64,000 bases of DNA from Lunularia cruciata (taxonomy: Eukaryota; Streptophyta; Marchantiopsida; Lunulariales; Lunulariaceae), in contig OX419762.1 of the NCBI GenBank assembly GCA_948567375.1, positions 41,397,034-41,461,033 on the forward strand. The letters are read 5' to 3'. The notes under the pieces are model-generated. The model made no database searches, had not been told where the DNA came from, and saw only the letters and a list, made by a program, of their open reading frames with translations. The translations under genes were made by a program, and so were the position numbers. Below, in pieces: positions 16,543 to 63,951 of the stretch (position 1 is the stretch's first letter; every line of letters starts with the position of its first letter).

Positions 16543-16645
16543 TGTAAAAGACCGAAACCGAGGAGAGAAATAGGAGAATGGAATCTCACATTGGGACACT
16601 TGAATGAGCAAAAACTCCAAATGCCTAGCATGAGCTTCGACCTTG

Positions 16646-16656
16646 GTATTTATAGG
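16646..16656 (-). promoter_or_regulatory. Predicted TATA box of the B LTR
   Basis: The minus strand reads CTATAAATACC. The same sequence is kept at the matching place in the other LTR (about 21864-21874). Confidence 0.6.
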
Positions 16657-16673
16657 TAGCATACAAGACCCTT

Positions 16674-16895: not shown

Positions 16896-16965
16896 TAGGC
16901 TATTTTGTCTTATTATCTACTTCATAAGCTCGACTAACTTTGTCACTAAACTCCATATTGTTACA

Positions 16966-16979
16966 TATTCCCCCGCCGC
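16966..16979 (-). promoter_or_regulatory. Polypurine tract of element B
   Basis: The minus strand reads GCGGCGGGGGAATA directly before the 3' LTR. Confidence 0.75.
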
Positions 16980-16999
16980 TAGTTGGTGACGTCCTCGTC

Positions 17000-20580: not shown

Positions 20581-20591
20581 TTCAAAATCTC

Positions 20592-21740
20592 CTACTGGGA
20601 TTCCTCGTTTCCCTGATCATTTCGCTCCACAACCTCCACTTGGGCAACTTGTCGAGGTCGTCCATTCTTGAGTGGACATTCAGCAATGCGATGCCCCAAT
20701 TGGCAACAATAAAAACAACCTCCATTTTGTTGTAATCTTTCTCTATCTGCTGTGCCAAGTGGTCTTTGTTGGATAGCATCAATCTCCATTGGTATTGGTT
20801 CTTCCACTCGTGGTACTGGTAGGCTTTGTGTAAGTCAAGGTCAAGACCAAGTTGTCACAACCAAGGAATCAAAACGCTCAGCCAATTGCATGGCTTCTTC
20901 TACATTTTGTGGCTCTCGTATGGTCACCTCCAATTTGGTTCGTGACTTCAATCCTTGCATAAATCAATCTAGAACTTCACCTTCTTGGATATCTAGAATT
21001 TGCATGATGATTCTGAAATTGTGTGATATAGCTTCTCACTAAGCCAATCTGCCTCAACTCCGCCAATTTATCTTGTGCGACTCGGGTGGCATTTATAGTT
21101 TGAAATCGACAAAGTATTGCATCCTTGAATTATGCCCATGTCGAAATCGGTGTAACAATTTGTCGTTTAGCTCTTTCTACTCGAAATCACCACCAAAGTT
21201 TTGCCACGCCATCTAATTGGCTAGAAGCCAAGAGAATTTGTTTCCGCTCGTCTTGAAGATTGGTGGCTTCAAAGTAACGTTTGCAGTCAAACACAAAATT
21301 CTCCACTGTGCCTGGAAGATTCTTGCCTTCAAACACCTTGGGTTTTGGAAATCAAATGCAATCTTCTCCATCTCGAACTGGCGCTCTGTCTATCTGTTCT
21401 CATCGTTGCTGGTCTCGTTCATCCAACAATCAAGTAAGATGCTCGATTTGTTGTTGCATTGCAAGGATAACATCTGGTATTGCCGCCATCGCTACTACTC
21501 TATTCCACTACTCTCAATTTATCTAATTGATTAACACATAGATACAACACGTCCACCGTTCTCCATAAGTTACAACTAGAAGTATCAAGGGTTCCTCTGA
21601 CACGGTGATCATATGTAGAAAATCCTACCCAAAGCGCGAGGTGATGAATTGTGTGAAACAATACTTTGGTAATATCTGGACATGAAAGTCCCAATGGTTT
21701 GGTGGAAGTGGATTTGGTGGTCCATAAATTCCATCCATCC
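20592..21740 (-). pseudogene. Element B gag, decayed
   Basis: The minus strand shows capsid-like sequence with stops (KLEVTIREPQNVEEAMQLAE near 20950-20890). Downstream is a zinc knuckle CFYCCQLGHRIAEC (about 20720-20675), C-x2-C-x4-H-x4-C. Gag packages element RNA. The frame is broken several times (for example near 20975 and 20860), and the knuckle part survives as a 71-codon open piece (20807-20592). Confidence 0.8.
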
Positions 21741-21747
21741 CATTCCT

Positions 21748-21759
21748 GCTCTAATACCA
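21748..21759 (-). promoter_or_regulatory. Primer-binding site of element B (tRNA-iMet type)
   Basis: The minus strand reads TGGTATTAGAGC one base inside the 5' LTR. The plant initiator-Met consensus is TGGTATCAGAGC, so there is one mismatch. Confidence 0.85.
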
Positions 21760-21760
21760 A

Positions 21761-22183
21761 TTTAAAAGACCAAAACCGATGAGAGAAATAGGAGAATGGA
21801 ACCTCACATTGGGACACTTGAATGAGGGAAAACTTTGAATGCCTAGCATGAGCTTTGGCCTTGGTATTTATAGGTAGTATACAAGACCCTTGAAGCTTCT
21901 CAAGAAGCTTCCTTGAGCCGCTTTCTTGGAGTGCAAGCCAAGTTAACTAGGAAGCTTCTCAAGAAGCTTCCTTCTAGAAGCCGCCTACTTGGCGTGCAAG
22001 CTAAGCTAGTTAGAAGCTTCTAGAAGCTTCCTTCTAGAAACTACGTGCTTAGAGCGCAAGTTAACTAGTTGGGAAGCTTCCCAAGAAGCTTCTTAGATGC
22101 TTCTAGAATATTCTAGGCTATTTTGTTTTATTATCTACTTCATAAGCTCGACTAACTTTGTCGCTAAACTCCATATTGTTACA
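21761..22183 (-). repeat. 5' LTR of element B
   Basis: Aligns end to end with 16543-16965 (about 18 differences). The perfect heat-shock-type motifs are retained at 22013-22030 and 22101-22113. Confidence 0.92.
21892..22113 (-). promoter_or_regulatory. Heat-shock-element-like array in the 5' LTR of B
   Basis: GAAGCTTCTAGAAGCTTC (22013-22030) and TTCTAGAATATTC (22101-22113) are identical to the other LTR although the LTRs differ elsewhere. This is the LTR that would drive the element's genomic transcript. Confidence 0.7.
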
Positions 22184-32959: not shown

Positions 32960-32992
32960 ATGTTTGTAGACCGGTGCTGCTTCTGCTGCTGA
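32960..32992 (+). promoter_or_regulatory. Upstream ORF (10 codons plus stop) in the YLMG1 leader
   Basis: ATG at 32960 opens a Cys-rich decapeptide ending at TGA 32990-32992, 80 bases before the main start. If transcribed it could reduce main-frame translation. The Cys run reflects a CTG/CTT repeat and may be incidental. Confidence 0.35.
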
Positions 32993-33072
32993 AGAGGGAG
33001 AGAGATAGTCACAGAGAAGAACATCACGTCGTGAAACGATTTGGCTTTTGTTTTAACGATTTGTTGCTGATC

Positions 33073-33750
33073 ATGGCTGTGGCGATGTCGATGGCGTCGT
33101 CCGTGTGTCTCGTACAGCCATCATCATCATCGCTGACGAATTCGAGAACAACTAAGGGAGTGAATCCGAAGAGGTTTGGCGGGGTTTTGGGTTCAGCGTC
33201 GATTCGCAGCACGAGGGTAGTAGGGAGAAAATGCTTGAGAGTTGTGGCATGTTTGGCGGATCAGCAGCAACCGAGTTTCTCCAGAGGTTTTTTCCTGGTG
33301 TTGGAGTCACTAGGGAGGAGCTTGAGCCAGATGGGCGAGAAAGTAGGGAATGTGATGCCGAAGTTTAAGCCACAGACTGAAGAAGAGATGCAACTGCTGA
33401 CTGCCTTGAAAGGAAGGATGGTTTTTGCGGCTGCACCACTATTTTTTGCTGCAATTTCTCAGTCTGCGCCTGTGAATACTCCTCTGACTGTTGTGGCCAG
33501 TGGAATGGCGAAGTGGTTGGAACTTTACAGTGGGGTTCTCATGGTACGAGTGCTTCTCAGTTGGTTTCCCAACATTCCCTGGGAAAGGCAACCCCTTCAA
33601 GCCATGAGGGACATGTGTGATCCTTACCTGAATTTGTTCAGGAATATCATTCCTCCCCTTTTCAACGCTCTTGACTTGAGCCCTATGTTGGCTTTCTTGG
33701 TTTTGGGAGTGCTGACCTCCATCTTGAATACCACAGTCCAGGCAGGCTAA
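33073..33750 (+). CDS. YLMG1: YlmG/YGGT family protein, chloroplast-targeted (YLMG1-like)
   Basis: A 225-residue protein. The start at 33073 (MAVAMSMASS) is the first in-frame ATG; the frame is open upstream to 32974, but without an ATG. Residues 1-60 are rich in Ser, Arg and Val with almost no acids and end RVVAC, as in a plastid transit peptide. Residues 116-130 are hydrophobic. The YGGT domain covers about 145-222, with MVRVLLSWFPNIPWERQPL (157-175), a CDPYLNLFRNIIPP core (182-195) and a second membrane segment (203-217). In plants YlmG proteins are thylakoid/envelope membrane proteins linked to nucleoid distribution; bacterial ylmG sits by the division gene cluster. No intron interrupts the frame. 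Length and motif order match the family. Which YLMG paralogue it is cannot be fixed here. Confidence 0.93.
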   Translation: MAVAMSMASSVCLVQPSSSSLTNSRTTKGVNPKRFGGVLGSASIRSTRVVGRKCLRVVACLADQQQPSFSRGFFLVLESLGRSLSQMGEKVGNVMPKFKPQTEEEMQLLTALKGRMVFAAAPLFFAAISQSAPVNTPLTVVASGMAKWLELYSGVLMVRVLLSWFPNIPWERQPLQAMRDMCDPYLNLFRNIIPPLFNALDLSPMLAFLVLGVLTSILNTTVQAG

Positions 33751-48816: not shown

Positions 48817-49840
48817 TTAAGACACAATGTCCTCGTTGCGCAATTGTTGCTCAAATGCTTGTACCAACACCGGTGCATGTGCCAAATTGGCAGCGGGTTC
48901 CCAGGTTGCTTCATAGAGGGGGTAACCTTTCCATTGTACTAGATATTCCACCCGCAGATGGTGAGTACCACATATGCATTTTTGGAGAATCCGCTCCACT
49001 TCATATTCCTCCGTGCCATCAATGAGTGTCGGACAAGGTTGAATGTCATGTGTGGAAGGACCTTGGCCTGATCGGGAAGCATATCTGCGTTGTAGGGAGA
49101 CATGGAACACTGGATGGATCTTCATGTGTGGTGGTAGCTCAAGGTGATAGGCCACAGTGCCGATGCGACAAAGAATCGAGAAAGGCCCAATAAAACAAGG
49201 TCTGAGCTTACGAGATCCAACTAATGTGAGGTTGGTTGTCAATAGCCAAACTTGATCCTCAACATTGAACTCCATGTGCCTACGGTGTGCATCAGCATAC
49301 TACTTTTGTCAATTTTGCGCAATCTATAACCTATGCTTGGCGCTCTCCACACCTTGTTGGATTCTAGAAACAAATGTGTTGACTGCATCAACCTTGGTAG
49401 TCACTGGACGGATCTTCATCAAGCTAGAAGGTGTGAAGGGATGCTCACCATACATGAGGAAGAACGGAGTGACCTGGGTTGAGGCATTCACTGAATTGTT
49501 GTAAGCAAATTCCACCAACGGTAGTAGGGTGTCCCACCTCTCTTGCTCTTCTAAGGTGAAGCCGCGTAACATGTCTTCAATCGTGCGATTAGCCCACTTT
49601 GTTTGGCCATCTATTTGTGGGTGGTAAGCTATAGACATGGCCAAATTGGTTTTGAAGAAACCAAAGAGTGTTCGCCAAAACAAACTGGTGAATTGGGTGC
49701 CTCTATCGGTGATGAGTCCTCTAGACAAGCCATGGTGAGCAAAGACTGTATCTAAGTATAGTTGAGCTAGTTGTGGAGCGGTCACCTCCTTGGTAGTAGG
49801 GCGTACATGAATCATTTTGCTGAGACGGTCCACAAGGACC
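48817..49840 (-). pseudogene. Element C integrase core and chromodomain (distal part)
   Basis: On the minus strand the integrase core (VDRLSKMIHVRP, ITDRGTQFTS, AYHPQIDGQT, EFAYNNSVNAS) runs 49840-49324. After stops, the C-terminal part follows (49275-48817) with PPHMKIHPVFHVS and a chromodomain (EYEVERILQKC, VEYLVQWKGYPLYEATWEP). The residue after DGQT is lysine (codon 49597-49599) instead of the catalytic glutamate. The upstream part of the same protein lies beyond the inserted element D at 57649. Confidence 0.9.
49837..49840. repeat. Target-site duplication of element D, left copy (GACC)
   Basis: GACC precedes the D 5' LTR and recurs at 57645-57648. Four bases match. With one copy removed, the element C integrase reading frame is continuous across the junction. 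Confidence 0.8.
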
Positions 49841-50519
49841 TGTAACACCCATTTGTGCATGTGTGTGGTATTGTGATATTTAGCTTGGTATTACAAGTAC
49901 TTAAGAGATATTATTTATATAGAGATAAAGGATGGTTCTATATTAGTCATGGTTAGCTAAAGTTAGTCATAGCTAAGATAGATGGGACCTTACTTTAGAG
50001 GAAGTAGAAAAGATGAGCACCACTATTTTGGATTTTAGTGTGTTGACTTGGTATTATTCCTAGGTGTTTGGCTTTGGGGAAAGAGTTGAGAACTCTTGGG
50101 CCCGCAAGCCTTTTTGTTTTGGATTCTTATTTAGTCCAAGGATAGCCCATGTGAAGGAATCCTTGCTTTAGTGGTTGGGTCAAGATAAGGGGAATATGCC
50201 CATGTGAATGGATATTCCTTTCTACTTTTTGACTTTACTTGACTTTTAGTCTAGTAACTTGAGTTACTACGGTAATTAGTAACTTTGGTACGTAACTATT
50301 TCACAAGTATATAAACAAGGAGTGAGGAGGTACTCAACATCATTTCATTTGCAACTATCTCTCTCTCATTGAGTTCTCTAGTGAGCAATGTCTTGAGTCT
50401 TGGAGTGTTAGCCTTGGAGGAGTATGATGGAGTTGGGGTTCCTTGCCTTCTTAGTCCATGGTGCGCTACCATAATAGCCATCAGAGGTTCATCCTGAGTG
50501 AGAGACAGGCCGGCTCACA
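49841..50519 (+). repeat. 5' LTR of element D
   Basis: TGTAACACCC to GGCCGGCTCACA, 679 bp, with a TATATAAA box at 50308-50315. The transcript start is expected about 25-35 bases further on. Confidence 0.95.
50308..50315 (+). promoter_or_regulatory. TATA box of the D 5' LTR
   Basis: TATATAAA, followed by a pyrimidine-rich CTATCTCTCTCTC stretch near 50353-50367. Confidence 0.65.
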
Positions 50520-50523
50520 TTTT

Positions 50524-50540
50524 TGGTTCCGTTGCCGGGA
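50524..50540 (+). promoter_or_regulatory. Primer-binding site of element D (tRNA-Asp type)
   Basis: TGGTTCCGTTGCCGGGA begins four bases after the LTR. The plant tRNA-Asp complement is TGGCGCCGTTGCCGGGG, so there are mismatches at only a few positions. Confidence 0.75.
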
Positions 50541-51379
50541 CCTCTCTAGAAGGCAAGATAATGTTCCGCGTCCAATTCTACATTAGGCAGAAGGAGGCTA
50601 TGAGAGCTCACTTGGAGAGAACATTAGGAGAGGAGAGGGCTTAACTTATGTTAGAGAACCAAGATCCATTTGTATACCCTGTAGTTCATTATGATGTCTT
50701 TGAGGTGATTTTGTACATCTTGTACACATGAGAGGAATTGGAGAGATTGTGTGAGGTGGATTGCAGATTTTGGGGATTAAGGTGATTTTGGGCAAAATCT
50801 CAAGTTTGAGATCTGGACTTGAGATTTCTACACATGATAGCTTGGGTTATCTTTCAGTTAGCACACTTGAAAGTATTGAGAGAGCTTCTATGCGCACTGG
50901 GCTAGAATTTTTGAAAGTTGATAGGGTAAAGTGCTCCCGTAACTGCATGCTCTCTGGAAAATTGTACAGAGTCTGCCATTTCTTCAATAATTAGTGAATT
51001 GTCCTGAAAATTTCCAAGAAAATTCAGTGCATTGTATCCTACCTGGTGACACAAAAATTAGAGAGAGATCATTTTTGCGCAGTGCGTTATGAGTTTTTGA
51101 AGTGAGGGGGGTGGTTTTCAGACCAAATCTGAAATATGGGTGCTGAATAGAAAGGTGTCTAGGCCAAATGGCTCGATGAAAAGATCTAAAATTTTGCAGG
51201 GAGGGACGCCCTAGAGTTTTGATCAAGTGTGGAAAATTTCAGAGGACTGTGACATATTAGTTGGGAGATTTGAGTGACATTGTGAGGAAGGGTCAATTCT
51301 GCAGAGTGGAGATCTCATGCATGAGAAGTTTGAGATCAACAAAAAGCATGTTTGAGTGTTTAGATTCATCTTGGGGAAC
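50541..51379 (+). other. Leader of element D, no clear protein
   Basis: Between the primer site and the first zinc-knuckle ORF. A 24-codon ORF begins at ATG 50561, and a 77-codon frame at 50761-50994 has no recognisable motif and begins without an ATG. The region may hold packaging signals. Confidence 0.5.
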
Positions 51380-51697
51380 ATGGAGAGTCATCAAGAGTGG
51401 AAATTGAGATTATGCAAGGTTCCCCAAGGGTTTGAGGTGATTGTAGGGGTGGATTTGAGGAAAAGAGAGTTTACAATAGAATTTGAAGAGAGTGTTGAGA
51501 GGATCCAAAAACCTACACCACTTGGAGGAAAGAGTGAGTCTAAGTGCTTTCTATGTGGAGAGAAGGGACATAAGGCAAGTTCATGTCCATTGACCTTTGA
51601 GAGCAAGAGATTGAGGGAAAGGAGAGGCTTACTTGACTTGGGTTTGCATGTTGGACCTTCTTCACCAAGATTGGGAGGGAGAAGATCTAAGACCTAA
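51380..51697 (+). CDS. Accessory leader ORF of element D with a CCHC zinc knuckle (105 aa)
   Basis: First ATG at 51380 (MESHQEWKLRLCKVPQGFEV); the frame is open slightly further upstream. Residues 1-50 are mixed beta-like sequence. A knuckle CFLCGEKGHKASSC (C-x2-C-x4-H-x4-C, about residues 57-70) follows, then a basic tail. The ORF is in the same frame as gag-pol but separated from it by stops. The region around the knuckle resembles the nucleic-acid-binding part of plant gag-like proteins. A separate zinc-knuckle ORF before gag is not usual in Ty3/gypsy elements. Function unknown; an RNA-binding or silencing-related role is only a guess. Confidence 0.5.
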   Translation: MESHQEWKLRLCKVPQGFEVIVGVDLRKREFTIEFEESVERIQKPTPLGGKSESKCFLCGEKGHKASSCPLTFESKRLRERRGLLDLGLHVGPSSPRLGGRRSKT

Positions 51698-51854
51698 GGA
51701 GTTGTGTGAGGTTTGTGGAGTTGAAGGACTTCCAAAAGGACATGAGTGTAGTGGAGTAAAAGCACTTTTGGAAACTTTGGTGAAGGATCTTGGAGAGAGT
51801 CTTAGTACAGCTATAGAAATACTACCACCTTCATCAGCTAGTTCTCAAGATTAG
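51633..51854 (+). CDS. Second accessory leader ORF of element D (about 73 aa), Cys/His motif
   Basis: It overlaps the end of the previous ORF in the +1 frame. The motif CEVCGVEGLPKGHEC (C-x2-C-x8-H-x-C) precedes an amphipathic segment (VKALLETLVKDLGESLSTAI). The overlap at 51633-51697 would allow a +1 shift to join the two, giving one protein with two Cys/His motifs. This is a reading of the sequence; expression is not shown. Confidence 0.4.
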   Translation: MTWVCMLDLLHQDWEGEDLRPKELCEVCGVEGLPKGHECSGVKALLETLVKDLGESLSTAIEILPPSSASSQD

Positions 51855-52090
51855 TGATGGAGATAATCTTTCATCTTATGGATAAACTATCCATGAGAGT
51901 TAGATTAATATGCACTCTAGGATTTGATGTTGCTATAGAAATCTTGGAGCAACCTGAACCTTTTGTGTTCCCTAGAGTGGATTATTCTCAGATGGTGTTA
52001 GTCATGTATATACTCTATTAGTAATAGAGTGAGAGAAAAGAAAAGAGGAAAAAAAAAATTGAGAGAAAAGAAAGATAGTGAGGGGTTAAG

Positions 52091-55000
52091 ATGGGGAAAC
52101 TTCCGGTTTTCTTTGGCAAGGATGGAGAAGATATGGAGGCCTTTGTGAGAGACTTCAAGAGAGCTTGCATAGGAAACAATGAGAGGAGGAAGAATGAGTG
52201 GGCCTCATTATTACCAGATTTCTTTGAGGATGCAGCACTTACATGGTATGAGTCAGAATACCAAAAGAGAGAGAGGAGAGAGGGGGAAGAGGAGTCTTGG
52301 GAGACTTTGACTTCAGCACTCATTGAGAACTTTCTTCCTGATGAGAGTTATGAGAGATTGATGAGTGAGGTTACATTTCTCAAGCAAGGAGATGGAGAGA
52401 AAGTGAGGGTCTATGTGGAAAGAGTGGAAAAGTTGGAGTCCAGATTTCACATAGTGTTGAGGAAGGGTGGGGATGATGTGGAGACTACAATGATTGGCAT
52501 AGGGGCCATGCTCACCAAGAATTTTGTGGGAGGATTGAGACCACAAATTAGAAGCAAGGTGAGATATGAGAAACCTTCTTCCAAGGTTGAAGCTATCAAG
52601 ATCGCAATTCGTATGGAGGAGAGTTTGGAAGGGGATGAGAGTGATTTGGTGGTGAAGGAGGTTGTGCATCCTCCTCAAGGCTACAAGTATGGTGGAACTT
52701 CTGATACTTTGGTGACAAGGGTTGCACCACAAGTAGTAGTTGCTCCAATTCTTACACCTCCACCAAAAGATCCACTCCAAACCATCACAGAACAACTTGC
52801 GGATCTCAAGATCAATGTGGTGCAACTATGGGAGAAGAGAGAGGTGGATCAGAATGTAGGGAGAGGACCTAGGAGTTATGGAAACTATCCATATAGAGGA
52901 GGCCAACCAGCCAACAATTTCAATGATAGAAATTGTTTTGGTTGTGGAGGAAGAGGCCATATCCAAAGGAATTGCCCAAATTCCACTTACCATGGAGGAA
53001 GGGGTTATGAGGGAGCCAATAGAGGGAAAGAGGGAGGTAGTGAAACCCAAGTGGCTCCTAATCCCAACAAAGGTAAGGGGATAGCATCCATAGATGTGGT
53101 TGAGAGCAAGTATGAGAAGAGAGAGTGCTCAAACTCCAAGGGTCTTAATTTGGAGCTTTTGGCACAAGAGAAGAAGAGAGCTCGTTTTGCAGAGGATGTT
53201 CACTCTTCTCAAGGATTTACTTCAAGCAAGGATACTCCTATGTCTACTAGGAGCACTCGCACCTCAACACCATCAACAACAAAGACTCCAAGGAAGAAGT
53301 TGGGGATGGAGGACTTCTTGATCTCAAAGCAACAATGGAACTACAATGTGTTGGAGGATGTTGGTAGTCACAAGGCTAACATCACAGTGGGCCAATTAAT
53401 TGCTTTGAACCCTACCTTGAGAAAGGAGCTTAGAGGTGGTTTGAGTTCTACAAGGAGCAAAAAGAAGAAGAAGGCAAAAGTTCCAGTATCAATGGGGGTG
53501 GTGGATGCCAAGCCAGCACCATGGGAGGCTTGTGAATATGCCTCCAAGATTGATGTGAGAGTGAATGGTCACAACATCAAGGATGCATTGGTTGATGGAG
53601 GATCAACAGTGAATGCCATGTCAGAAAGGTTGATGAAGAAGTTGGGTATGATACCCTCAAGACCTTCAACATTTGTGGTGAGCATGGCAAACAAGCAACA
53701 AGTTCGACCAGTAGGGGTGATGGATAAGGTGGTAGTTTCAGTTATGGGAGTTCAAAATCTCATGACTTTCCAAGTCTTGAAGGATTCAAGCTATGACTTA
53801 CTTCTTGGGAGGCCATGGTTGAGAGCAGCACGCACAACTGATCGATGGCACAAAGGGTACTTGAGGATTGGGCCATCAAACCATAGAGTCACTGTTCCTG
53901 TGACTAACACCACCAACACTTCACATTCAGATACCCCATCTTCTAATTATTGGGAATCAGATTCTGAAGAAGGAGCTTCAGGTGTGGACACAAGCATGGA
54001 AGAGGAGACTTCCACGGAGGAGGATGAATCTGAATCTGATTCAGATGTGTATCCCTTGTGTGCTATGGATTTTGCACCTAAGCCAGAGGTTTTGAAGGAC
54101 CCAGATAAATCACCATTGACACTTGAGGAGGTAGAGAGAAGGTTATCTACCCTCAAGTATGGCCCAAATGTTACCAAGGAGGAGAAGGTGAGATTTGAGG
54201 AGATTTTCCGCAAGTTCATCCATGTGTTTGCTTTTAGTTACAAGGATTTGAAGGAAGTCACCTTGGAGGAGCACAAGATAGAGGTGGAGTCACATGCAAG
54301 ACCAATCCGCCAAAAGCAATGTCGCATTAGCCCACCAATATCTTTGGTTGTGAAGGAGGAGATTGATAAGCTCAAGGAGGTTGGATTTATCTTTGAGGTG
54401 GAGAATTCAGAATGGGTGTCTCCAATTGTCATTGTGAAGAAAAAGAATGGCAAGCTTCGGGTATGTGTGGATTACAAGAAGCTTAATGCTGTTACCAAGA
54501 AGGACTACTACCCATTGCCATTCATTGATGAGATCTTGGAGGAGGTTGCAGGTCATGAGAGGTACAGTTTTGGAGATGGTTATAGTGGATATAACCAAAT
54601 AAAGATTGCACCAGAGCATCAACAACTCACCACATTCACCACACCTTGGGGAACTTATGCTTTCAAGGTCATGCCTTTTGGGCTTTGCAATGCTCCAGCC
54701 ACATTCCAACGGTTCATGAACAAGGTATTTGAACCTTTCATTGGGAAATTTGTGAGAGATTTCATTGATGACTTTTGTGTCTATGGGAGCAAGGAGGAGC
54801 ACTTTGAGCACCTAATCAAAGTCTTGCAACGCTTGGATGCGGCAAATGCATCACTCAACCCAGAGAAGTGCATTTTTGGATGTGAAGAAGGTCTACTTTT
54901 GGGGCACATCATCTCCAAGGATGGAATAGCAGTTGATCCTGAGAAGGTGAGGAAAATCTCAGACCTTCCATTCCCTTCAAGCTTGACAAAGTTACGCCAA

Positions 55001-56917
55001 TTCTTGGGAATGGTTGGGTACTATAGGAGGTTCATCTTCTCATTTTCCAACAAGGCTTATGCATTGACCATCTACATGAAGAAGGGTGTAGATTACATGG
55101 TGATTTTGGAAGACAAGGAGGCTCTCAAAGCTTTTGAGGAGCTCAAGCAATCCCTTGTTGTAGCTCCAATTCTTGCTAAACCTGATTGGAGTAAGCCTTT
55201 CATCCTCTACACTGATGCTTCTAATGTAGCTATAGGATGCACTCTTAGTCAATTAGACCAAGATGGGCATGATCATCCAATAGCTTATGCTAGTAGGCAG
55301 ATGGTTTCAGCAGAGAAGAACTACTCTGTCACAGAGAGAGAAGGGTTGGCAGTGATCTTTGGTCTCAAGAAGTTTAGACACTACTTGATTGGAGGGAAAG
55401 CCACAATTGTCACGGATCACAAGGCTTTGAAGTACATCTTCAACAAGCCTAATGTTGAAGGGAGACTAGCAAGGTGGATGATACTCTTGTCTGAGTATGA
55501 CTACACAATTGAGGATAGGCCAGGAAAGAAACATGCAAATGCTGATTTGTTATCTAGAGCCTATGATCATGATGGAGATGAGCCAGTAGATGATTCCTTC
55601 CCGGATGAGGAGCTCATGACAATCTCAGTCACTCAAGAGATTCCAATGGAGTACAAGGAGATTGTGGATTTTGTGACAAGAGGTAACTATCCAGAAGGGA
55701 TGCATGCTAGGGAGAGGAAGGCCCTTGCAGCAAGATCTAGACCTTACACAATGGTGGAGGATATTCTTTTTCACCAAGGAGCAGATGGTCTACTTCGAAG
55801 AGCAGTGGGTAAGGAAGAGTCTATCTTACTCATAAAGGAGTTTCATGAAGGTTTAGTATGTGGAGGACACTTTGCAGGAAAGGTGACTGCTTTCAAGATT
55901 CTAGATGCAGGTTACCATTGGAGAGGGATTTTCAAGGATTGTCTTGATTATTGCAAAACTTGTCATGTTTGTCAAGCTTTTGCTAGAAAGTCTACATCCA
56001 CTCCACCACTTAGATCAATTCCATTGCTAGGACCTTTTGAGAAGTGGGGAATTGATTTTGTAGGACCTCTCAATAGAACCCCAAGGAACAATCGGTACAT
56101 TGTGGTAGTTACTGATTACCTTACCAAGTGGGTTGAGGCTAGACCATTGAGGGACAAGAATGAAGATGAAGTGGGTAGATTTCTTTATGAACGCATTATC
56201 ACTAGGTTTGGATGCCCTTTGGAGTTGGTTTCTGATAGAGGAGGAGAGTTTACAGGAAGCATTACTACAGCCATGCTACGACATTTCTCTATCACACATA
56301 GAGTAACTACATCCTATAAGCCAAATTCCAATGGCTTGGCAGAGAGAACCAATCAGACCTTGTGCATGATGTTGGCCAAAGATGCAGAAATGGAGGGGGC
56401 TAAACATCATTGGGACAAGAGGATTCATGCAGTTTTGTGGGAGTATAGGACAACCATGAAGACTTCCACTGGATATTCTCCATTCCAATTGGTGTATGGT
56501 ATTGAGTCTACCTTACCTATTCACTTTGATCTTCCTACCTTCCAAAGCATTCATAGGAGATTGAAGAAAGCACAAGGAAGTGATGCAGGGAAGTCAAGGA
56601 AGGATCAACTCATGGAGTTGGAAGAGGCAAGAGCAGTTGCTATGGTTCGAGTGGAGCAAGCCCAAAGGAAACAAAAGGAGAGCTATGACAAGAGGCAAGG
56701 CAAGAAGAAGGTGGAGCCTTTCAAAGAAGGTGATTGGGTAATGTTGTTTGATTCCATTCGATTCAAGAGAGTGCAAAAGAAGTTTTTGCCTAAGTACTTT
56801 GGACCTTTCATAGTAGAGAAGGTGTGGGGCAATTACACCTATGATCTCAAGGAGTTGGGAGGAAGACACTTTGATAGGATTAACCATGATAAGTTGAAGA
56901 TGTACCATAGAAGGTAG
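52091..56917 (+). CDS. Gag-pol polyprotein of element D (1608 aa, uninterrupted)
   Basis: ATG at 52091 follows a purine-rich leader. Residues 1-180 are capsid-type gag (LTWYESEYQKR). A knuckle CFGCGGRGHIQRNC lies at 282-295. The protease has ALVDGGSTVNAMS, with D502-G-G where most relatives have D-S/T-G. RT has VCVDYKKLN (791-799), MPFGLCNAPATF and FIDDF with D893 and D894. RNase H begins YTDAS (D1042) and includes VTDHKALKYIF. The integrase zinc finger runs from H1252 to the CKTCHVC cysteines (C1288 onward). The core has D1322, D1382 and E1418, exact D,D-35-E spacing. It ends in a GPFIVEKVW-type tail with no chromodomain. Gag and pol share one frame. Nothing in the sequence rules out activity. 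Confidence 0.95.
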   Translation: MGKLPVFFGKDGEDMEAFVRDFKRACIGNNERRKNEWASLLPDFFEDAALTWYESEYQKRERREGEEESWETLTSALIENFLPDESYERLMSEVTFLKQGDGEKVRVYVERVEKLESRFHIVLRKGGDDVETTMIGIGAMLTKNFVGGLRPQIRSKVRYEKPSSKVEAIKIAIRMEESLEGDESDLVVKEVVHPPQGYKYGGTSDTLVTRVAPQVVVAPILTPPPKDPLQTITEQLADLKINVVQLWEKREVDQNVGRGPRSYGNYPYRGGQPANNFNDRNCFGCGGRGHIQRNCPNSTYHGGRGYEGANRGKEGGSETQVAPNPNKGKGIASIDVVESKYEKRECSNSKGLNLELLAQEKKRARFAEDVHSSQGFTSSKDTPMSTRSTRTSTPSTTKTPRKKLGMEDFLISKQQWNYNVLEDVGSHKANITVGQLIALNPTLRKELRGGLSSTRSKKKKKAKVPVSMGVVDAKPAPWEACEYASKIDVRVNGHNIKDALVDGGSTVNAMSERLMKKLGMIPSRPSTFVVSMANKQQVRPVGVMDKVVVSVMGVQNLMTFQVLKDSSYDLLLGRPWLRAARTTDRWHKGYLRIGPSNHRVTVPVTNTTNTSHSDTPSSNYWESDSEEGASGVDTSMEEETSTEEDESESDSDVYPLCAMDFAPKPEVLKDPDKSPLTLEEVERRLSTLKYGPNVTKEEKVRFEEIFRKFIHVFAFSYKDLKEVTLEEHKIEVESHARPIRQKQCRISPPISLVVKEEIDKLKEVGFIFEVENSEWVSPIVIVKKKNGKLRVCVDYKKLNAVTKKDYYPLPFIDEILEEVAGHERYSFGDGYSGYNQIKIAPEHQQLTTFTTPWGTYAFKVMPFGLCNAPATFQRFMNKVFEPFIGKFVRDFIDDFCVYGSKEEHFEHLIKVLQRLDAANASLNPEKCIFGCEEGLLLGHIISKDGIAVDPEKVRKISDLPFPSSLTKLRQFLGMVGYYRRFIFSFSNKAYALTIYMKKGVDYMVILEDKEALKAFEELKQSLVVAPILAKPDWSKPFILYTDASNVAIGCTLSQLDQDGHDHPIAYASRQMVSAEKNYSVTEREGLAVIFGLKKFRHYLIGGKATIVTDHKALKYIFNKPNVEGRLARWMILLSEYDYTIEDRPGKKHANADLLSRAYDHDGDEPVDDSFPDEELMTISVTQEIPMEYKEIVDFVTRGNYPEGMHARERKALAARSRPYTMVEDILFHQGADGLLRRAVGKEESILLIKEFHEGLVCGGHFAGKVTAFKILDAGYHWRGIFKDCLDYCKTCHVCQAFARKSTSTPPLRSIPLLGPFEKWGIDFVGPLNRTPRNNRYIVVVTDYLTKWVEARPLRDKNEDEVGRFLYERIITRFGCPLELVSDRGGEFTGSITTAMLRHFSITHRVTTSYKPNSNGLAERTNQTLCMMLAKDAEMEGAKHHWDKRIHAVLWEYRTTMKTSTGYSPFQLVYGIESTLPIHFDLPTFQSIHRRLKKAQGSDAGKSRKDQLMELEEARAVAMVRVEQAQRKQKESYDKRQGKKKVEPFKEGDWVMLFDSIRFKRVQKKFLPKYFGPFIVEKVWGNYTYDLKELGGRHFDRINHDKLKMYHRR

Positions 56918-56950
56918 AGAGACCTTCACTTTGAGGACAAAGTGAAAACT

Positions 56951-56965
56951 TAGTCCGGGGGTAAA
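56951..56965 (+). promoter_or_regulatory. Polypurine tract region of element D
   Basis: CCGGGGGTAAA lies directly before the 3' LTR. Confidence 0.7.
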
Positions 56966-57644
56966 TGTAACACCCATTTGTGCATGTGTGTGGTATTGTG
57001 ATATTTAGCTTGGTATTACAAGTACTTAAGAGATATTATTTATATAGAGATAAAGGATGGTTCTATATTAGTCATGGTTAGCTAAAGTTAGTCATAGCTA
57101 AGATAGATGGGACCTTACTTTAGAGGAAGTAGAAAAGATGAGCACCACTATTTTGGATTTTAGTGTGTTGACTTGGTATTATTCCTAGGTGTTTGGCTTT
57201 GGGGAAAGAGTTGAGAACTCTTGGGCCCGCAAGCCTTTTTGTTTTGGATTCTTATTTAGTCCAAGGATAGCCCATGTGAAGGAATCCTTGCTTTAGTGGT
57301 TGGGTCAAGATAAGGGGAATATGCCCATGTGAATGGATATTCCTTTCTACTTTTTGACTTTACTTGACTTTTAGTCTAGTAACTTGAGTTACTACGGTAA
57401 TTAGTAACTTTGGTACGTAACTATTTCACAAGTATATAAACAAGGAGTGAGGAGGTACTCAACATCATTTCATTTGCAACTATCTCTCTCTCATTGAGTT
57501 CTCTAGTGAGCAATGTCTTGAGTCTTGGAGTGTTAGCCTTGGAGGAGTATGATGGAGTTGGGGTTCCTTGCCTTCTTAGTCCATGGTGCGCTACCATAAT
57601 AGCCATCAGAGGTTCATCCTGAGTGAGAGACAGGCCGGCTCACA
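56966..57644 (+). repeat. 3' LTR of element D
   Basis: 679 bp, with no difference found from the 5' LTR. Confidence 0.95.
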
Positions 57645-57648
57645 GACC
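57645..57648. repeat. Target-site duplication of element D, right copy (GACC)
   Basis: Matches 49837-49840. Confidence 0.8.
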
Positions 57649-59812
57649 ACAATGGAGTCAAACCCTGAGGTGGTCTTGGGTAATTTGCAGACAAGATCCA
57701 TACTCACTTGTTCCCAACGTTGGGTAGGAGTGGAGAGAGGTTGAAGGAGCCCTACAGGAGCTTGATTAGAGGCTTTGTTCTATTGACAAAGTAGGCAGCT
57801 ACGCACATAGTCCATCACGTCGTTGCTCATCTTGGGCCAATAGTAATGGCGCTTGACTGCATCCAAGGTCTTGTCTACTCCGACATGAGCTGCAATGGCC
57901 GAATCATGACATTCCGCTAGAATGATGGTGCGTAAGTCTGGGACATTTGGGATCCATAATCTGCCATCCCAAAAGGTGAGTCCTTGGGTGCTGGTGACAC
58001 CTTTGGACAATTGCGCTTCTACAATCTGTGGATCAGTTTTTGTAGCAGCTAGAATCTCTTGCCAGAATTCAGGGTTAATCTTAACCTCTGCCACCAAGTT
58101 GTTGGCCATTGGCATACGGGTGAATGCATCTGCCAGTTGTTTCTTACCTTCCACATAGGTGATTGTCATGTTGAAGCATTGTCACCACTCTGCCCACCGA
58201 ATTTGGCGACGAGATAGATCCTTCTGCATCTCAAGGTAGACTAGAGGTTTGTGGTCTGTCTCTACTACAAATGCCTTCTCGCCCAGGTAGTGCTTCTAAT
58301 GCTTGGTTGCTAGAACAATGGCCAACTCTTCTCGTTCTGTGGTGTGGTAGTTGCGCTCTGCCAATAACAACTTTTGAGAGAAATACACAATTGGATGCCA
58401 TCCGTCATGCCACTCTTGTTGTAGGATTGCTCCTATTGCTACGCTTGATGCATTTGTAGCCAACTTGATTGGACGTTTTGGGTCATACCACTTCAAGATT
58501 GGTGCATGTAGCAAGGCGACCTTCAATTCTTGGAAGGCCAACTCTTGTGCGGTTCCCCATGTCCACTTCTTCCCCTTGCCAAGTAGTGTTGTTAAAGGTT
58601 GTGCAACCTTGGAGAAGTCCTTGACAAATCTACGATAGAATCCCGTCAACCCCAAGAAGCTCTTAAGTTGAGTCTGATCTTCTGGGGCACTCCATTTTTT
58701 AATGACCTCTATTTTATCTATCAATACTTGAATGCCCTCTGCACTTACTCTATGCCCTAAGTAGTCTACTTCAGACTTGCCAAACTCACACTTTGAGATT
58801 TTGGCGTACAACTGATTCTGTCTTAGAATCTGGAAGACCTCTCGTAGATGTTGTTTGTGTTCTATCATCGTGCTACTATATACTAAGATATCATCCAAGA
58901 AGATGATAATAGACTTATCCAAGTATGGACAAAATATGTCATTCATTAGGCTCATGAAAGTGGCAGGCGCATTGGTGAGGCCAAAAGGCATCACAAGATA
59001 CTCAAAGTGGCCATACTTGGTTCAAAAGGTAGTTTTGTACACATCCTCCTCTGCAATTTGGATTTGATTATAACCGCTCTGCAAGTCCAGTTTGGTGAAG
59101 TATCTTGCTCCATGGATTTGATCAAACAGGTCATCCATGCAAGGTAAGGGGTATTTGTTCTTCACTGTTTGCTGATTGAGACCTTGATAGTCAATGCACA
59201 TGTGCATTGTACCATCCTTCTTCTTCACAAACAAGACAAGGGCCCCATATGGTGATACGCTAGGTTGGATGAACCCTTTCTATAGCATCTCCTCAATTTG
59301 AGTCTTACACTCCTCCAACTCATGAGGTGATAGGCGATATGGGGCCTTACAAGGAGGTGTCTTCCCCGGGAGTGTCTCTATTTTGTGATCTACTCGCCTT
59401 TTAGGTGGTAATCCTGAGGGTAGATCATCGGGAAAGACATCTTGAAACTCATCCACCACATCCTTCAATTTCTCAGGAATTTGTCCAACGAGTTGTGCAC
59501 TCTGGACTTCTCTTATTAGACCCATAAAACATCTATCGGTCTTACAGACAGTTGTCGTCCCTACGACATATAGAGGCAGTTTCTGCCTGTGTGATTTTTC
59601 TTTAACCCCAATGATTGACCATTGGTGGGTTCTCACTACTTTCTTCCTCCAATCCACCATTGGGTTGTACTGCTCCATCCATGGCATGCCTAAAATTGCA
59701 TCATAACAGGCTAACTATATCACTCGCAACTCAATTGCTTCCTGATATTCTCCTACAGAGAGGGTTACACGTTGTCGTTGGGAAAATAGCCCACGTGTAC
59801 CCTTGAGGCTTT
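57649..59812 (-). pseudogene. Element C protease remnant, RT, RNase H and integrase zinc finger
   Basis: From right to left on the minus strand: the end of protease (AILGMPWMEQYNP near 59700), RT (59234-58780; [42 protein letters not shown], catalytic [12 protein letters not shown]), RT connection ([16 protein letters not shown]), RNase H (about 58460-58100; ETDHKPLVYL, and TNASS in place of TDASS), and the integrase zinc finger (HDSAIAAHVGVDKT...SCLLCQ). Six in-frame stops lie near 59715, 59280, 59022, 58296, 58184 and 57780. The 5' part, including the protease active site, gag and 5' LTR, is missing at about 59812, where unrelated sequence begins. Confidence 0.92.
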
Positions 59813-60435
59813 TGGTGTGATAAATTTTCTTTTCTCTTTTATTTGTTGTAAGGAACAGGGATTTATGATAATATGTCTCGGGTGTGGTTTTGCTACCTGG
59901 TTTTGGGAGAATGTGAAAGGAGTCTTGAAGGCTGAAGGTTTTGGAGATGCATGAGGGCTGTGTTTTGGACCAGGACAGAAATTTCAAAATGTGAAGGGAG
60001 TTTTGAAGGGCTGAAAGCTTTTGGAGATGCCTTAGGACTGTGTTTTGGACCAGGATAGGAATTTTCGAAATGTGAAAGGAGTCTTGAAGGGCTGAAGGCT
60101 TTTGGAGATGCCTTAGGACTGTGTTTTGGACCAGGATAGGAATCTTCGAAATGTGAAATGAGTCTTGGAAGCAGATTTGTGTTATGAATTGTGACTAGAG
60201 TTGAGGAAACTCCATTCTAGGATCTCTTAGTCTGGTCCAGGTGAAAAGCATAATTAAATGATCTGAGTGCCGGATTTATGTTCAGTTAGATCACTCAGTT
60301 GTTGTTTATTTTATTTTATCAAAGGGCCACCGGACCTAGGTCTATGAACTGCCAGATCCCAAACCATAGCTTGAACCTGACGAGAAAATAGGATATGAGA
60401 CCAAGCAGAAGTAGAAACCATAACACCAGCCTCAC
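59813..60435 (+). other. Sequence between element C and the gag-ESF1 ORF
   Basis: It holds an 80-bp tandem repeat (59913-60175) and then non-repetitive leader-like sequence. It may be LTR or 5' leader of the element that carries the next ORF. No second LTR copy is inside the window to prove this. Confidence 0.45.
59913..60175 (+). repeat. Tandem repeat, about 80-bp unit, 3.3 copies
   Basis: Copies at 59913-59990 (78 bp), 59991-60071 (81 bp), 60072-60152 (81 bp) and a partial fourth to about 60175. Each has GTGAAAGGAGTCTTGAAGG, CTTTTGGAGATGC, GTGTTTTGGACCAGGA and TTCGAAAT-like blocks. Copies 2 and 3 are the most alike. Confidence 0.9.
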
Positions 60436-63400
60436 ATGACAAGATTGGTTTTACGAAAGTCAAGGATAAAACAAAACCTTCAGGGTGAGTCAACCTCAGG
60501 AAAACTAAGCACAAGCAGCCATGTGCTCGGCGCACTCTCAAGACCGAATGTTCCCCACGACATAAGTGGCAACCATGCTGGGGAATCTCGAGGCTTGTGC
60601 TTAGACATTACGACTAGTTGGAGTTGGGGAAGGGAACAAAGGACAGATTGGACTGATCTAAGTGGAGAGGAGGTGAGCTGTGCTGAGGTAGAGATGGGCC
60701 CAGAGGCTTCATCTGCAGCTATGACAAGGGAACAGGAGATCTCACTGATTGTCATGGCAACCATGAGAGCCATGAAGGATCAGGATGAGGAAAGAGACAG
60801 GGTGAAGGTGCAGTCTTTGCAAGTCACAAAATGTTTGCGTGCTGTGGTGGACCAGCGGGGGGAATTTGATGGTAAGGACGTGACTAAGTACCTGAAGGTC
60901 TACTGGAGAGAGGTTAAGCTTCATGGTCTTGATGAGAAGGTTGCCATTGCAAGGTTCCCTAAGCTGGTGGAGCTTGAAATCAAGAAGATGGTTGAGGGCT
61001 TGGTGAGAGGGGCAAAGACATGGGAGGAGTTCTCCCAGATGATGAAGGAGGAATTCTTGCTGCAGGATGCAGATCGGGTCACCCAGGCCATGTTCTTGGA
61101 TTGGGTGAATGATAGGAGTAAAAACTTGGGGCCTCAAGATCTCCTAAGAGAGTTTAACAAGAGACTGGGGCATCTGTCAGCTTGTGAAGCTGAGGCCATT
61201 AGACTACAGAGGTCTAACTACTTTCTGCTAGCTGCAGATAGTCGTTTGCGGGATGAGTTGGAGTATGCACTTGATTTGCTCCAACCTGATCGGTTGGGAA
61301 CGGTAGAGTGGGGAAAGATTGAGGAGGCGGTTGTCTGGGTAAGCCGCAAGCGGAGGCAGAGAGAGCTGGATGAAGAAGCAATAGCCAAAGCGCCTATTTG
61401 GAGTAGCATGGTTGGGTCCGGGAGAGAGAAGATGGAACAGCGAGTGAGCGAGGTGGCTAAGGGAGGAGCTGTTGACAAGATATCACGACTAATGGAGGGG
61501 CTGAAAGCTCTGACCACCAAGGTCGACCAGCTGCAGAGTGGGAGTAGTACTGCGAGAACAATCGGAGAGAAGAGACAGCTCTATGGGTGCATGTGGTGTG
61601 ATAGTAAAAGTCATGCCAAGAGAGATTGCCATGAGCTATCAGAAGCGTTGCATGAGCAGCTGGTGAAATTTGTGGGAGAGCCCGGAATGAAGAAGGTTGC
61701 CTTCTTTGACACTGGGGAGCCAATACCGCTGAACTGGAACAGAGGAGGCATGAAGGCACTGCTGGAGAGACACTTGGGCACACGTGAAGTAGGTATGGCA
61801 ATTGCTACTTTTGGGCCTAGTGTGTATAGTGCAGTGGGTGAGATGAAACAAAGTACAGATTTATATGAGATGGAAAAGAAGAAGAACAAATATCAAGGAG
61901 GAGAAACAAAGAGGCAAGGACAAGATGGACCTCTAGTGAGAGATGCTCAAGTTTCTCAAGTTCACCATGACCCGCAATTTCAAAGATTGCCCAAGAACGA
62001 AAGCAAGGTTGGTATAAATTCTTGGAATGCTCATAAGTTTCATGATACAGGGTTTGCTGTAAAGGAGTCGGGGGTAGAATGGCCACCAAAAGCAAAGGTA
62101 GGGAAAGCTCTTACCATTGACAAGAAGAGTGTGCAACATTTTATTGGAGGAATAGAGGCAGATAAATTTGAGAAGAGATTGAAGAAGAAAACTGAAGAAC
62201 ATGGTGCTGATTTTATCTTGCACGACGGTCTAAGGGGAGAATGGAGGTTTCAAGGGAATCACTTCAGCAGAAACAGGTTGGATGACTCTGACAAGGAAGA
62301 AACTCCTCAACAAGGGTCTAGCAAGGAGCTAGTTCTTTTAGGAAAAGATGTGATGGAAGGTGTGGAGGAGAATTCTGAAAATCTCTCACCAAAAGGTCCT
62401 GACATTGGTAAGGAAGCTGTGGAAGTTGACAAAGATGAGGAAAGGTATGACCAGATTCATAGTGTTGCTTCTCAAGCAGCATTGCTTCACTTGTTACCTT
62501 CTGAATTGAGACAAGATCCACTTAAAATGCATCAAATGAGGGCTTTGTTTTTCCCTTTGGGTGAAGAAGAAGAAGGATCAGGACTTTATGAAGATGCAGA
62601 GGAGGAAGAAGAGTCATGCTCGTTGTCATCATCTTCAGATAGTGAGAGTGATGCCGAAAAGGTGCGAAATGAAGAGGAGAAGGTTCCTACCACAAATCAG
62701 GGAACTAAAAGGCTTGCACTCACAAACATGGATTGGGGCCACACCACAGCATTAGACTTGCCTCTAGGGCTGTGCTCTTTCCAACTGAAAGGAGGGGAAG
62801 TCAAGTCTTTGACAATATATTCATCTGAATTTGGGGTGGAGCAGATAGCAAAGGAAGCAATGCAGGGACCTCAAGGTACTTACAGCCACAACGACAACAA
62901 AATTGATGATGAAGTTGATCCTAAGAAGCTGCAAGAGTATGAGAAAGCTTTGAGGCAGAAGTTCAATCTTGACCAACTGAATGAACAAGACTTCAAAGGC
63001 TATGTGGCATCAAGTTCTGACTCTGAGCAAGAAGGCGGTAGAGTCAAAGAGGATGGGAATAGCAATATTGAGAAGGTTATTGGTAAGGAGAAAGATAAGT
63101 TGCAAGCAAAGTATCTATTCTTGTTGTCTAAGACAGGAGGATTGGATGAGGAAAAGGTGGTGGGCAAGAAATCAGAGAAAGGAAACATTGAGATAAAGTT
63201 TCACACAGGACTAGGTGAGCTTAGTGAGGAACTTATGGAGAAGATGAGGAAGACCAAGAGTGGTGAAATGGTATTGGAAGCCTACCTGCGCAAGAGAAGA
63301 AGAAGAAGAAGGAAGAGGCAGCCTTCCAAAAGAAGGAAGAGAAGAAGAGGAAGGCAGAGCTTGAGTTGCTGCTCATGGATGCCGATATGGTGCGAAATGG

Positions 63401-63951
63401 CCAGACCAAATCAAAGCCACAAAAGGACTTGTCAAAGAAGGAAGAACATAAGAAAAGGCAAATTGGTTGATGTACAAGAAGATGTTTTGGGGGAAAAGGA
63501 AATGTTGGCTGAAGGGACAAGTACATTCAAGCTATTGGATCAGAAGAGAGTACAACTTGCCAACGAAAGGAAGGAGTTTTTGTCAACAATTAGTCTACTC
63601 ATGAAGGATATCAACACTCTCAAAGGGTCAAATCAGGAGCTAGTAATACTTGCTGAAGAGAAGATGCAGCTTTTGGATAAAACCACTGCTTTGACCGATA
63701 TCGGTGCACTGAAGCGATTGAGTGAAGGGCACGCACAGTTGTACAAATTGCAGAAAGAAGAGTTGGGGCTAGAAATGGAACAAAGAATGGTGAGCATTGA
63801 ACTTCAGCTCCAGGAGTCCAAGAACAAATATTGTGCTTTGGGGACCAGTTCAAAGGCAGCTGCCAAGATTTTGCAAGAGAAGCAGGGGTCCTTCAAGAAC
63901 TGCCTGCAAAGTTTTCTCAAGAAGCTAAAGAATCTCCAAGTTGCATCATGA
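60436..63951 (+). CDS. Chimeric ORF: Ty3/gypsy-type gag fused to an ESF1-like sequence (1171 aa)
   Basis: One intronless frame. Residues 1-86 look like translated leader; ATG 60694 (residue 87) is an alternative start. About 110-450 is gag: GKDVTKYLKVYW, EEFSQMMKEEFLLQDADRV, a knuckle CMWCDSKSHAKRDC (385-398), then an RGGMKALLERHL segment typical of plant gypsy gag. From about 505 the sequence follows ESF1, a nucleolar pre-rRNA processing protein: DPQFQRLPKNESKV (512-525), an acidic region, RLALTNMDWGHTTALDL (about 757-773), then LQEYEKALRQKFNLDQL, which joins two ESF1 parts and drops the roughly 100 residues usually between them, and EIKFHTGLGELSEELMEK before AYLRKR (949-954). After that the frame is shifted (basic run), followed by a coiled-coil-like tail of unknown origin. 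It could be a retroelement carrying a captured gene or a fused host gene. Confidence 0.75.
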   Translation: MTRLVLRKSRIKQNLQGESTSGKLSTSSHVLGALSRPNVPHDISGNHAGESRGLCLDITTSWSWGREQRTDWTDLSGEEVSCAEVEMGPEASSAAMTREQEISLIVMATMRAMKDQDEERDRVKVQSLQVTKCLRAVVDQRGEFDGKDVTKYLKVYWREVKLHGLDEKVAIARFPKLVELEIKKMVEGLVRGAKTWEEFSQMMKEEFLLQDADRVTQAMFLDWVNDRSKNLGPQDLLREFNKRLGHLSACEAEAIRLQRSNYFLLAADSRLRDELEYALDLLQPDRLGTVEWGKIEEAVVWVSRKRRQRELDEEAIAKAPIWSSMVGSGREKMEQRVSEVAKGGAVDKISRLMEGLKALTTKVDQLQSGSSTARTIGEKRQLYGCMWCDSKSHAKRDCHELSEALHEQLVKFVGEPGMKKVAFFDTGEPIPLNWNRGGMKALLERHLGTREVGMAIATFGPSVYSAVGEMKQSTDLYEMEKKKNKYQGGETKRQGQDGPLVRDAQVSQVHHDPQFQRLPKNESKVGINSWNAHKFHDTGFAVKESGVEWPPKAKVGKALTIDKKSVQHFIGGIEADKFEKRLKKKTEEHGADFILHDGLRGEWRFQGNHFSRNRLDDSDKEETPQQGSSKELVLLGKDVMEGVEENSENLSPKGPDIGKEAVEVDKDEERYDQIHSVASQAALLHLLPSELRQDPLKMHQMRALFFPLGEEEEGSGLYEDAEEEEESCSLSSSSDSESDAEKVRNEEEKVPTTNQGTKRLALTNMDWGHTTALDLPLGLCSFQLKGGEVKSLTIYSSEFGVEQIAKEAMQGPQGTYSHNDNKIDDEVDPKKLQEYEKALRQKFNLDQLNEQDFKGYVASSSDSEQEGGRVKEDGNSNIEKVIGKEKDKLQAKYLFLLSKTGGLDEEKVVGKKSEKGNIEIKFHTGLGELSEELMEKMRKTKSGEMVLEAYLRKRRRRRRKRQPSKRRKRRRGRQSLSCCSWMPIWCEMARPNQSHKRTCQRRKNIRKGKLVDVQEDVLGEKEMLAEGTSTFKLLDQKRVQLANERKEFLSTISLLMKDINTLKGSNQELVILAEEKMQLLDKTTALTDIGALKRLSEGHAQLYKLQKEELGLEMEQRMVSIELQLQESKNKYCALGTSSKAAAKILQEKQGSFKNCLQSFLKKLKNLQVAS
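61588..61629 (+). other. CCHC zinc knuckle in the gag part of the chimera
   Basis: Residues 385-398 read C-x2-C-x4-H-x4-C, the nucleocapsid-type spacing that supports a gag origin. Confidence 0.8.
63292..63470 (+). pseudogene. Out-of-frame ESF1-like tail segment
   Basis: In the frame reached by skipping two bases in the purine run at about 63292-63317, the sequence reads EEAAFQKKEEKKRKAELELL followed by MDADMVRNG. That matches the conserved AELELLL block near the ESF1 C-terminus, and it ends at a stop near 63468. The main ORF instead reads Arg/Lys-rich and then Cys/Trp-containing sequence here. An indel in the AGA/GAA run explains the switch. Confidence 0.65.

Follow-up and report, generated by a model that had tools for sequence, protein, structure and literature searches.

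What is a single uninterrupted reading frame doing in a liverwort genome when it begins as a retroelement gag and continues as the ribosome-biogenesis factor ESF1? The open reading frame (ORF) in question encodes 1171 amino acids without an intron at 60436..63951 on the plus strand of a 64,000-nucleotide stretch of Lunularia cruciata, hereafter the window (C12:41397034-41461033 of a 565.8-Mb genome assembly in 74 contigs). The ORF listing, in which it starts with ATG, agrees in coordinates and length with a first-pass annotation of the window, which proposed either that an LTR (long terminal repeat) element had captured ESF1 or that a host gene had been born by gag-ESF1 fusion. The open frame and the ESF1 match are genuine, yet this is not a simple gag-ESF1 fusion. 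In all likelihood it belongs to a family of non-autonomous LTR retrotransposons that have exchanged protease and pol for reverse-transcribed fragments of three host mRNAs, those of ESF1, of Nup98-96 and of a coiled-coil repeat protein, held in one frame behind gag.

An LTR retrotransposon without pol

The element is an LTR retrotransposon of 5,297 bp, most of it inside the window, that lacks pol. Comparison of the window copy (L021) with its own downstream flank revealed two repeats: a 790-bp 5' LTR at 59773..60562 (plus strand) that runs from TG to CA with the ends TGTCGTTGGG...CCCCACGACA, and a 3' LTR, 98.99% identical to it over 790 bp, at window-scale 64280-65069 on the same strand, outside the window and in the region beyond 64000 where the first-pass annotation had suggested looking. 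A primer-binding-site (PBS) region at 60563..60587 (plus strand) directly follows the 5' LTR, with a 4-nt spacer and then TGG..., a pattern that recurs, if at most 4 mismatches are allowed, in 18 of the 20 copies retrieved together with flanking DNA, and a polypurine tract (PPT), GGTGGGGGTGAA, precedes the 3' LTR. The element thus carries the full set of landmarks of an LTR retrotransposon: two TG...CA LTRs, a PBS after the first and a PPT before the second. The ORF opens inside the 5' LTR (ATG at 60436) and then crosses the PBS. Because the internal region measures 3,716-3,717 nt in all six copies measured and the gag-cargo frame occupies 3,255 nt of it, there is no room for pol; Pfam searches of the 1171-residue ORF returned no match to protease, reverse transcriptase or integrase. 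The 5' LTR holds tandem repeats of ~81 nt at about 59910-60171, and 3' LTR length across L021-L040 ranges from the 790 bp of the window copy to ~2.9 kb, through expansion of a tandem repeat of ~45-90 nt.

Insertion has left 4-bp target-site duplications. These could be read on both sides in 4 of the 20 fetched copies, and are exact in L024 (CCGG), L028 (ACGG) and L035 (CCGG), the fourth being the window copy. The first four bases of the right flank read NCGN at all 14 readable right ends (L021-L029, L033-L035, L039 and L040); in this CG-poor genome CG makes up 1.0% of window dinucleotides, and the chance of 14 out of 14 would be 1.4e-28 if sites are independent. This preference may hint that methylated CG, or the chromatin that goes with it, directs integration, and a literature search on CpG-targeted integration found nothing on such targeting. 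With the window copy taken out, the site can be read as uninterrupted protease sequence of a Gypsy element on the minus strand.

The gag part occupies 60694..61869 (plus strand, ~392 codons), as defined by alignment with homologues; its predicted fold weakly resembles Arc capsids. Fifteen gag homologues were found at E<=0.001 (best E=2.6e-167; protein database, 7,999 candidates scored), ~660-860 residues long, several of which end with an aspartic-protease-like part. They begin at ORF residue 87 (nt 60694) and align to about residue 483-509, their linker/protease half being absent from the window copy. The assignment of the first ~450 residues to gag is therefore right apart from residues 1-86, which are not gag. 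The zinc knuckle also noticed at first pass is located at 61588..61629 (plus strand) as C-X2-C-X4-H-X4-C, and its four CCHC ligands are invariant in a 16-row alignment. No gag family in Pfam matches this region, and the best hit of its sequence among solved structures (Arc2) has an E value of 0.94. An AlphaFold model of gag (mean pLDDT 76, pTM 0.42) has the capsids of Drosophila Arc (dArc) as its top Foldseek matches (best E=0.037 at a probability of 0.99); Arc N-lobes and the Copia and HIV capsids rank lower, and no match reaches E<=0.001. These predicted-structure matches support a capsid and do not prove the Ty3/gypsy branch; as the element is without pol, its putative Ty3/gypsy membership is drawn from gag.

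Host sequences behind gag and their donors

Behind the truncated gag the frame runs through ESF1 pieces, a Nup98-96 piece, more ESF1 and finally a piece that we call X, so that the Nup98-96 piece is nested inside ESF1. The ESF1 homology, inspected at first pass without a database, is borne out by the Pfam family RRM_ESF1 (E=2.2e-17; 63.8 bits, where the cut-off is 27; positions 1-96 of 151 covered) and by ESF1 proteins of liverworts and mosses (best E=4.7e-79), the closest being those of Marchantia, Riccia and Calypogeia. The blocks do follow ESF1 order, as had been claimed; what had been overlooked is the Nup98-96 insert at ORF residues 561-715, the deletion of half the RRM, the shifted frame of the last ESF1 piece and a third host piece in the last ~160 residues.

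Our reference for ESF1 is the genome's own gene (L041, G000:C1:17360500-17363400), which has two exons and one ~0.5-kb intron and is the intron-bearing donor that the first-pass annotation had proposed to seek. All pieces lie on the plus strand. The N-terminal ESF1 pieces (61878..62131) are two blocks, L041 95-297 and 514-588, with a deletion joint at the repeat GAGTCGG. The Nup98-96 fragment follows at 62116..62580, after which ESF1 resumes, only ~23 nt away from the break (L041 588 to 611), with its acidic region and the N-terminal half of the RRM (62562..62948; 87% nucleotide identity to L041 611-997). A deletion from L041 997 to 1776, its joint at GAGAAAGC/GTGAAGGC, takes out the intron together with the second half of the RRM, and the region after the RRM continues at 62940..63312 (86% identity to L041 1776-2149). 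A further deletion, from L041 2149 to 2386 inside an AAG-rich run, shifts the frame of the C-terminal ESF1 piece (63291..63462; 88% identity to L041 2386-2557). Short repeats are present at the ESF1-internal deletion joints.

The Nup98-96 fragment is 61% identical to residues 945-1098 of a Riccia Nup98-96 protein, P0006 (E=7e-45), and consists of the end of the autopeptidase domain, with its HFS kept, followed by the start of the Nup96 side; the Pfam match to that domain is incomplete (positions 108-145 of 148) and below the cut-off (E=0.0017). The host Nup98-96 gene is found at G000:C6:53742291-53749348 (25 matches, 25 of 101 candidates scored). Piece X (63466..63951), the coiled-coil end of the ORF, comes from an unnamed repeat protein with a donor-type locus at G000:C1:58688718-58689986, an open frame of 1071 residues with at least four internal repeats, which X matches four times, at 63, 68, 39 and 40% (genome search, 77 matches). 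X has no relative at E<=1 in the protein database (585 candidates), nothing above the cut-off in Pfam and no match among solved structures. Donor-type loci of all three cargo pieces are hence present in the same genome.

A working ESF1 or Nup98 protein was considered and ruled out. Marchantia ESF1 carries both RRM_ESF1 and NUC153; the ORF has no Pfam match to NUC153 and so does not combine it with a complete RRM_ESF1, and the halved RRM is accompanied by a partial autopeptidase domain and an out-of-frame ESF1 end.

The form in which ESF1 was captured is suggested by an older cargo-type copy at C2:12867306-12868496, directly adjoined by matches to X, in which ESF1 residues 337-738 are contained in 1,191 nt that span the intron position near residue 380. 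Because this copy leaves no space for the ~0.5-kb donor intron, an RNA intermediate is favoured, and with it spliced mRNA as the probable source of the ESF1 sequence. Another old copy, at G000:C12:26051563-26052270, has the N-terminal ESF1 part and a longer Nup98 piece (943-1121) with no later ESF1 match, and is possibly an intermediate of the nested capture. The nesting itself might have arisen by recombination between two cargo elements, one with ESF1 and X and the other with N-terminal ESF1 and Nup98, rather than by two jumps in one round of reverse transcription. The longer Nup98 piece with N-terminal ESF1 at C12:26051731 would fit such a partner, as would older copies at C6:15122180-15123562 and C2:12866674-12868496 that run from ESF1 directly into X with less deletion and no Nup98 match seen. 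However, these older copies are known from match coordinates and may be mere truncations, and with ESF1 resuming so close to its break one double jump is as simple; we regard recombination as the rather unlikely route.

We envisage that element RNA and host mRNAs were packaged together. Template switching by reverse transcriptase at short repeats would then have linked ESF1 to gag, with the other pieces added later or simultaneously. Retention of the LTRs, PBS, PPT and gag would allow the element RNA to be packaged and copied, with protease, reverse transcriptase and integrase presumably supplied in trans by intact relatives of the same gag family. The products have integrated with duplication of 4 bp of the form NCGN and now occupy dozens of loci, some of which they reached very recently. 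The frame may be kept open since genomic RNA with an early stop after gag would be open to decay, or the Gag tail would be harmed.

Copy number and age of the family

A genome search with ORF residues 501-1171 gave 80 matches with 66 of 122 candidates scored, so that the counts that follow are lower bounds. At least 22 loci, each in a single match of at least 502 of the 671 residues, carry most of the cargo at 90-100% identity, and at least seven keep an open frame of at least 1,124 codons without a stop. Alongside these are many older, broken cargo copies, with identity down to about 53-80%. The distance from gag start to stop is exactly 3,255 nt in six copies. The two LTRs of L028 are 100% identical over 1,778 bp, as are those of L027 over the 1,761 bp compared (its 5' LTR is cut by the end of the fetched stretch), showing that the cargo family has moved recently at some loci. 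At a plant rate of 7e-9 substitutions per site per year, which was not measured for liverworts, the synonymous divergence (dS) of 0.30 between cargo and the ESF1 gene would place their split near 20 million years, and the LTR divergence of the window copy would correspond to below 1 million years.

These copies bear on two simpler accounts. A domesticated host gene derived from a gag-ESF1 fusion, the second proposal of the first-pass annotation, would explain a long intronless open frame, but the LTRs, the target-site duplications, the dispersal over at least 22 loci and the neutral cargo contradict it; the unit is a mobile family, and we rejected the host fusion gene as very improbable. The same LTRs, PBS, PPT, duplications and dozens of dispersed copies bear out the first proposal, capture of ESF1 by an LTR element. 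An artefact of assembly or gene modelling, also raised earlier with regard to the joint, is scarcely credible, for nothing was found in its favour and dozens of loci, spread over many contigs, show the same joints, with six copies agreeing to the nucleotide in their length from gag start to stop.

Intact relatives and exchange of gag

The genome also holds at least nine uninterrupted gag-protease ORFs of 790-791 residues from the same gag family (P0013 against the genome, 63 matches, 57 of 3,913 candidates scored), and these relatives are presumed to be autonomous. Two cargo copies, L030 and L035, carry mosaic gags. Relative to the window copy, the gag of L030 differs by 9-13% over nt 0-300 and by 15-18% over about 675-1000, whereas the stretch between these patches and most of the cargo differ by 1-3%; in L035 the gag differs by 15-18% over about 225-525. 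Because the divergent comparisons give an omega of 0.13-0.20, the patches appear to have been imported from a constrained lineage.

A genome search with one 301-nt patch (L030:2830-3130) returned 40 matches. The patch itself scored 544 bits and five others scored 539 bits, within about one base of it; all five lie in uninterrupted gag-protease ORFs (C16, C11, C10, C7 and C1:59758069). Identity is 95-99% for the remaining 34. To go by their positions, the 39 non-self matches include no known cargo copy, the one at C8:49916959 lying within ~2 kb of an old cargo match on the opposite strand. To judge from the sequences, this is direct evidence that a cargo element and an intact relative recombined recently. 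In LTR elements recombination normally means co-packaging followed by template switching, and it is very likely that the cargo family and its intact relatives share particles.

Selection on gag and cargo

Does the chimeric protein matter to the element? In a set of 16 copies, from which the mosaic-gag copies L030 and L035 and the truncated copies L034 and L036 were excluded, the spectrum-corrected omega is 0.81 for gag (85 sites, z -0.93) and 1.13 for cargo (160 sites, z 0.75), neither different from 1. Variants shared by at least two copies give 0.47 for gag (20 sites) and 1.48 for cargo (47 sites), neither significant, and 11 young copies give 1.09 and 1.00. An apparent contrast over 18 rows between purifying selection on gag (0.37) and neutral cargo (1.13) was withdrawn, the signal having come from the mosaic gags of L030 and L035. 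Uncorrected Nei-Gojobori ratios are lower, at 0.46 for gag and 0.61 for cargo among six intact copies and 0.28 and 0.67 among 18 rows. Between cargo and donor ESF1, the nonsynonymous divergence (dN) is 0.12 over 308 codons, a ratio to dS of 0.40 for the two branches combined. When Marchantia serves as outgroup, 53 amino-acid changes are found in the cargo only and 3 in the donor only, with 178 residues common to all three. Constraint on the cargo is strongly relaxed, though perhaps not entirely gone.

At the observed mutational spectrum and the substitution density of ESF1, 12.5 stops would be expected in the 692 cargo codons, an estimate that takes the amount of change in Nup98 and X to equal that in ESF1; the open lineage has none. 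The ESF1 blocks alone should have 2.7-4.5, and again there are none (P(0)=0.01-0.07). The intact copies share ancestry, so that this count concerns one lineage and not many trials. A frameshift was tolerated at least once, into a frame that was open.

One explanation is that the chimeric protein has its own selected function, with the cargo serving, for instance, as a tail that directs Gag to the nucleus or nucleolus, and that the family spread by this advantage. The missing stops and the uncorrected cargo ratios of 0.61-0.67 would agree with it. Against this, the corrected omega is near 1 for all cargo sets examined, the cargo has changed at many residues that the donor has in common with Marchantia (53 changes against 3), and the domains that such a protein would draw on are halved, absent, truncated or out of frame. 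We consider a selected function improbable. We can also suggest, as something short of an even chance, that the cargo is an open-frame filler whose residues hardly matter while selection bars stops, through nonsense-mediated decay of the genomic RNA or a spoilt Gag tail; the family would then be a modular chassis that lives on its intact partner, swaps gag patches by template switching and has long kept a neutral, host-derived tail open.

Several points weigh against the reading of the family as a pol-less element with reverse-transcribed host cargo. The intron of the window copy was lost within a larger deletion, which by itself proves nothing on an RNA route, and the inspection for microhomology covered the ESF1 joints. 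The target-site duplication of the window copy is imperfect (ACGT/CCGT, three of four bases). The gag-protease relatives are presumed helpers, and the uncorrected cargo ratios all lie below 1, which leaves room for weak constraint.

Other elements and genes in the window

The neighbourhood is rich in Gypsy elements. A complete one at 49841-57644, with 679-bp LTRs that are 100% identical, a 1608-residue gag-pol ORF at 52091-56917 and GACC on both sides, is a very recent insertion. An older minus-strand Gypsy element (49138-49872 and 57645-59772, resuming at window-scale 65070) has taken up two insertions, the young Gypsy within its integrase and the cargo element within its protease. A third, Gypsy-like element on the minus strand at 16545-22183 has a protease-reverse transcriptase ORF (19180-20565) and 421-bp direct repeats that are 96% identical, with related repeats at 8707 and 25604. 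A 258-residue ORF at 32974-33750 with a YGGT family domain (E=1.5e-18) is likely an ordinary host gene.

Relation to known gene-capturing elements

The element is an amplified Bs1-like chimera, and maize Bs1, to which the first-pass annotation aptly compared it, is its closest known counterpart. The hybrid ORF of Bs1 includes gag, and Bs1 is without reverse transcriptase. Both are LTR elements in which gag and several spliced, incomplete host gene pieces form one hybrid ORF. Bs1 is described as carrying three transductions, of a proton ATPase, a xylan endohydrolase and a beta-1,3-glucanase (PMC13317346). Here the cargo stems instead from ESF1, Nup98-96 and a coiled-coil protein, with one piece lying inside another, and unlike Bs1 the liverwort family has high copy number, recent activity, gag exchange with intact relatives and an NCGN target. 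It also resembles terminal-repeat retrotransposons with gag (TR-GAG), which have LTRs and gag but no pol and are mobilised in trans, in having LTRs and gag and no Pfam match to protease, reverse transcriptase or integrase. TR-GAG elements are not defined by host cargo, however, whereas here host sequence makes up two thirds of the coding region. Host genes captured inside LTR retrotransposons are described from rice and sorghum in the same source (PMC13317346), and such surveys list captured genes element by element, while here one chimera has been amplified as a family. Transduced ORFs occur in one or a few copies according to a further account (PMC7264820), as against at least 22 loci in Lunularia. 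Our literature search on ESF1, retrotransposon and gag found no report of such a combination.

Gene capture by LTR elements is usually taken as a dead end, left in one or a few copies; here it has given rise to a thriving family. With the donors, older versions and intact partner all in one assembly, capture, deletion at short repeats, nesting, amplification and gag exchange become datable. The family also offers a natural test of whether the openness of a frame is selectable apart from its protein sequence, and of how an element without pol parasitises its partner.

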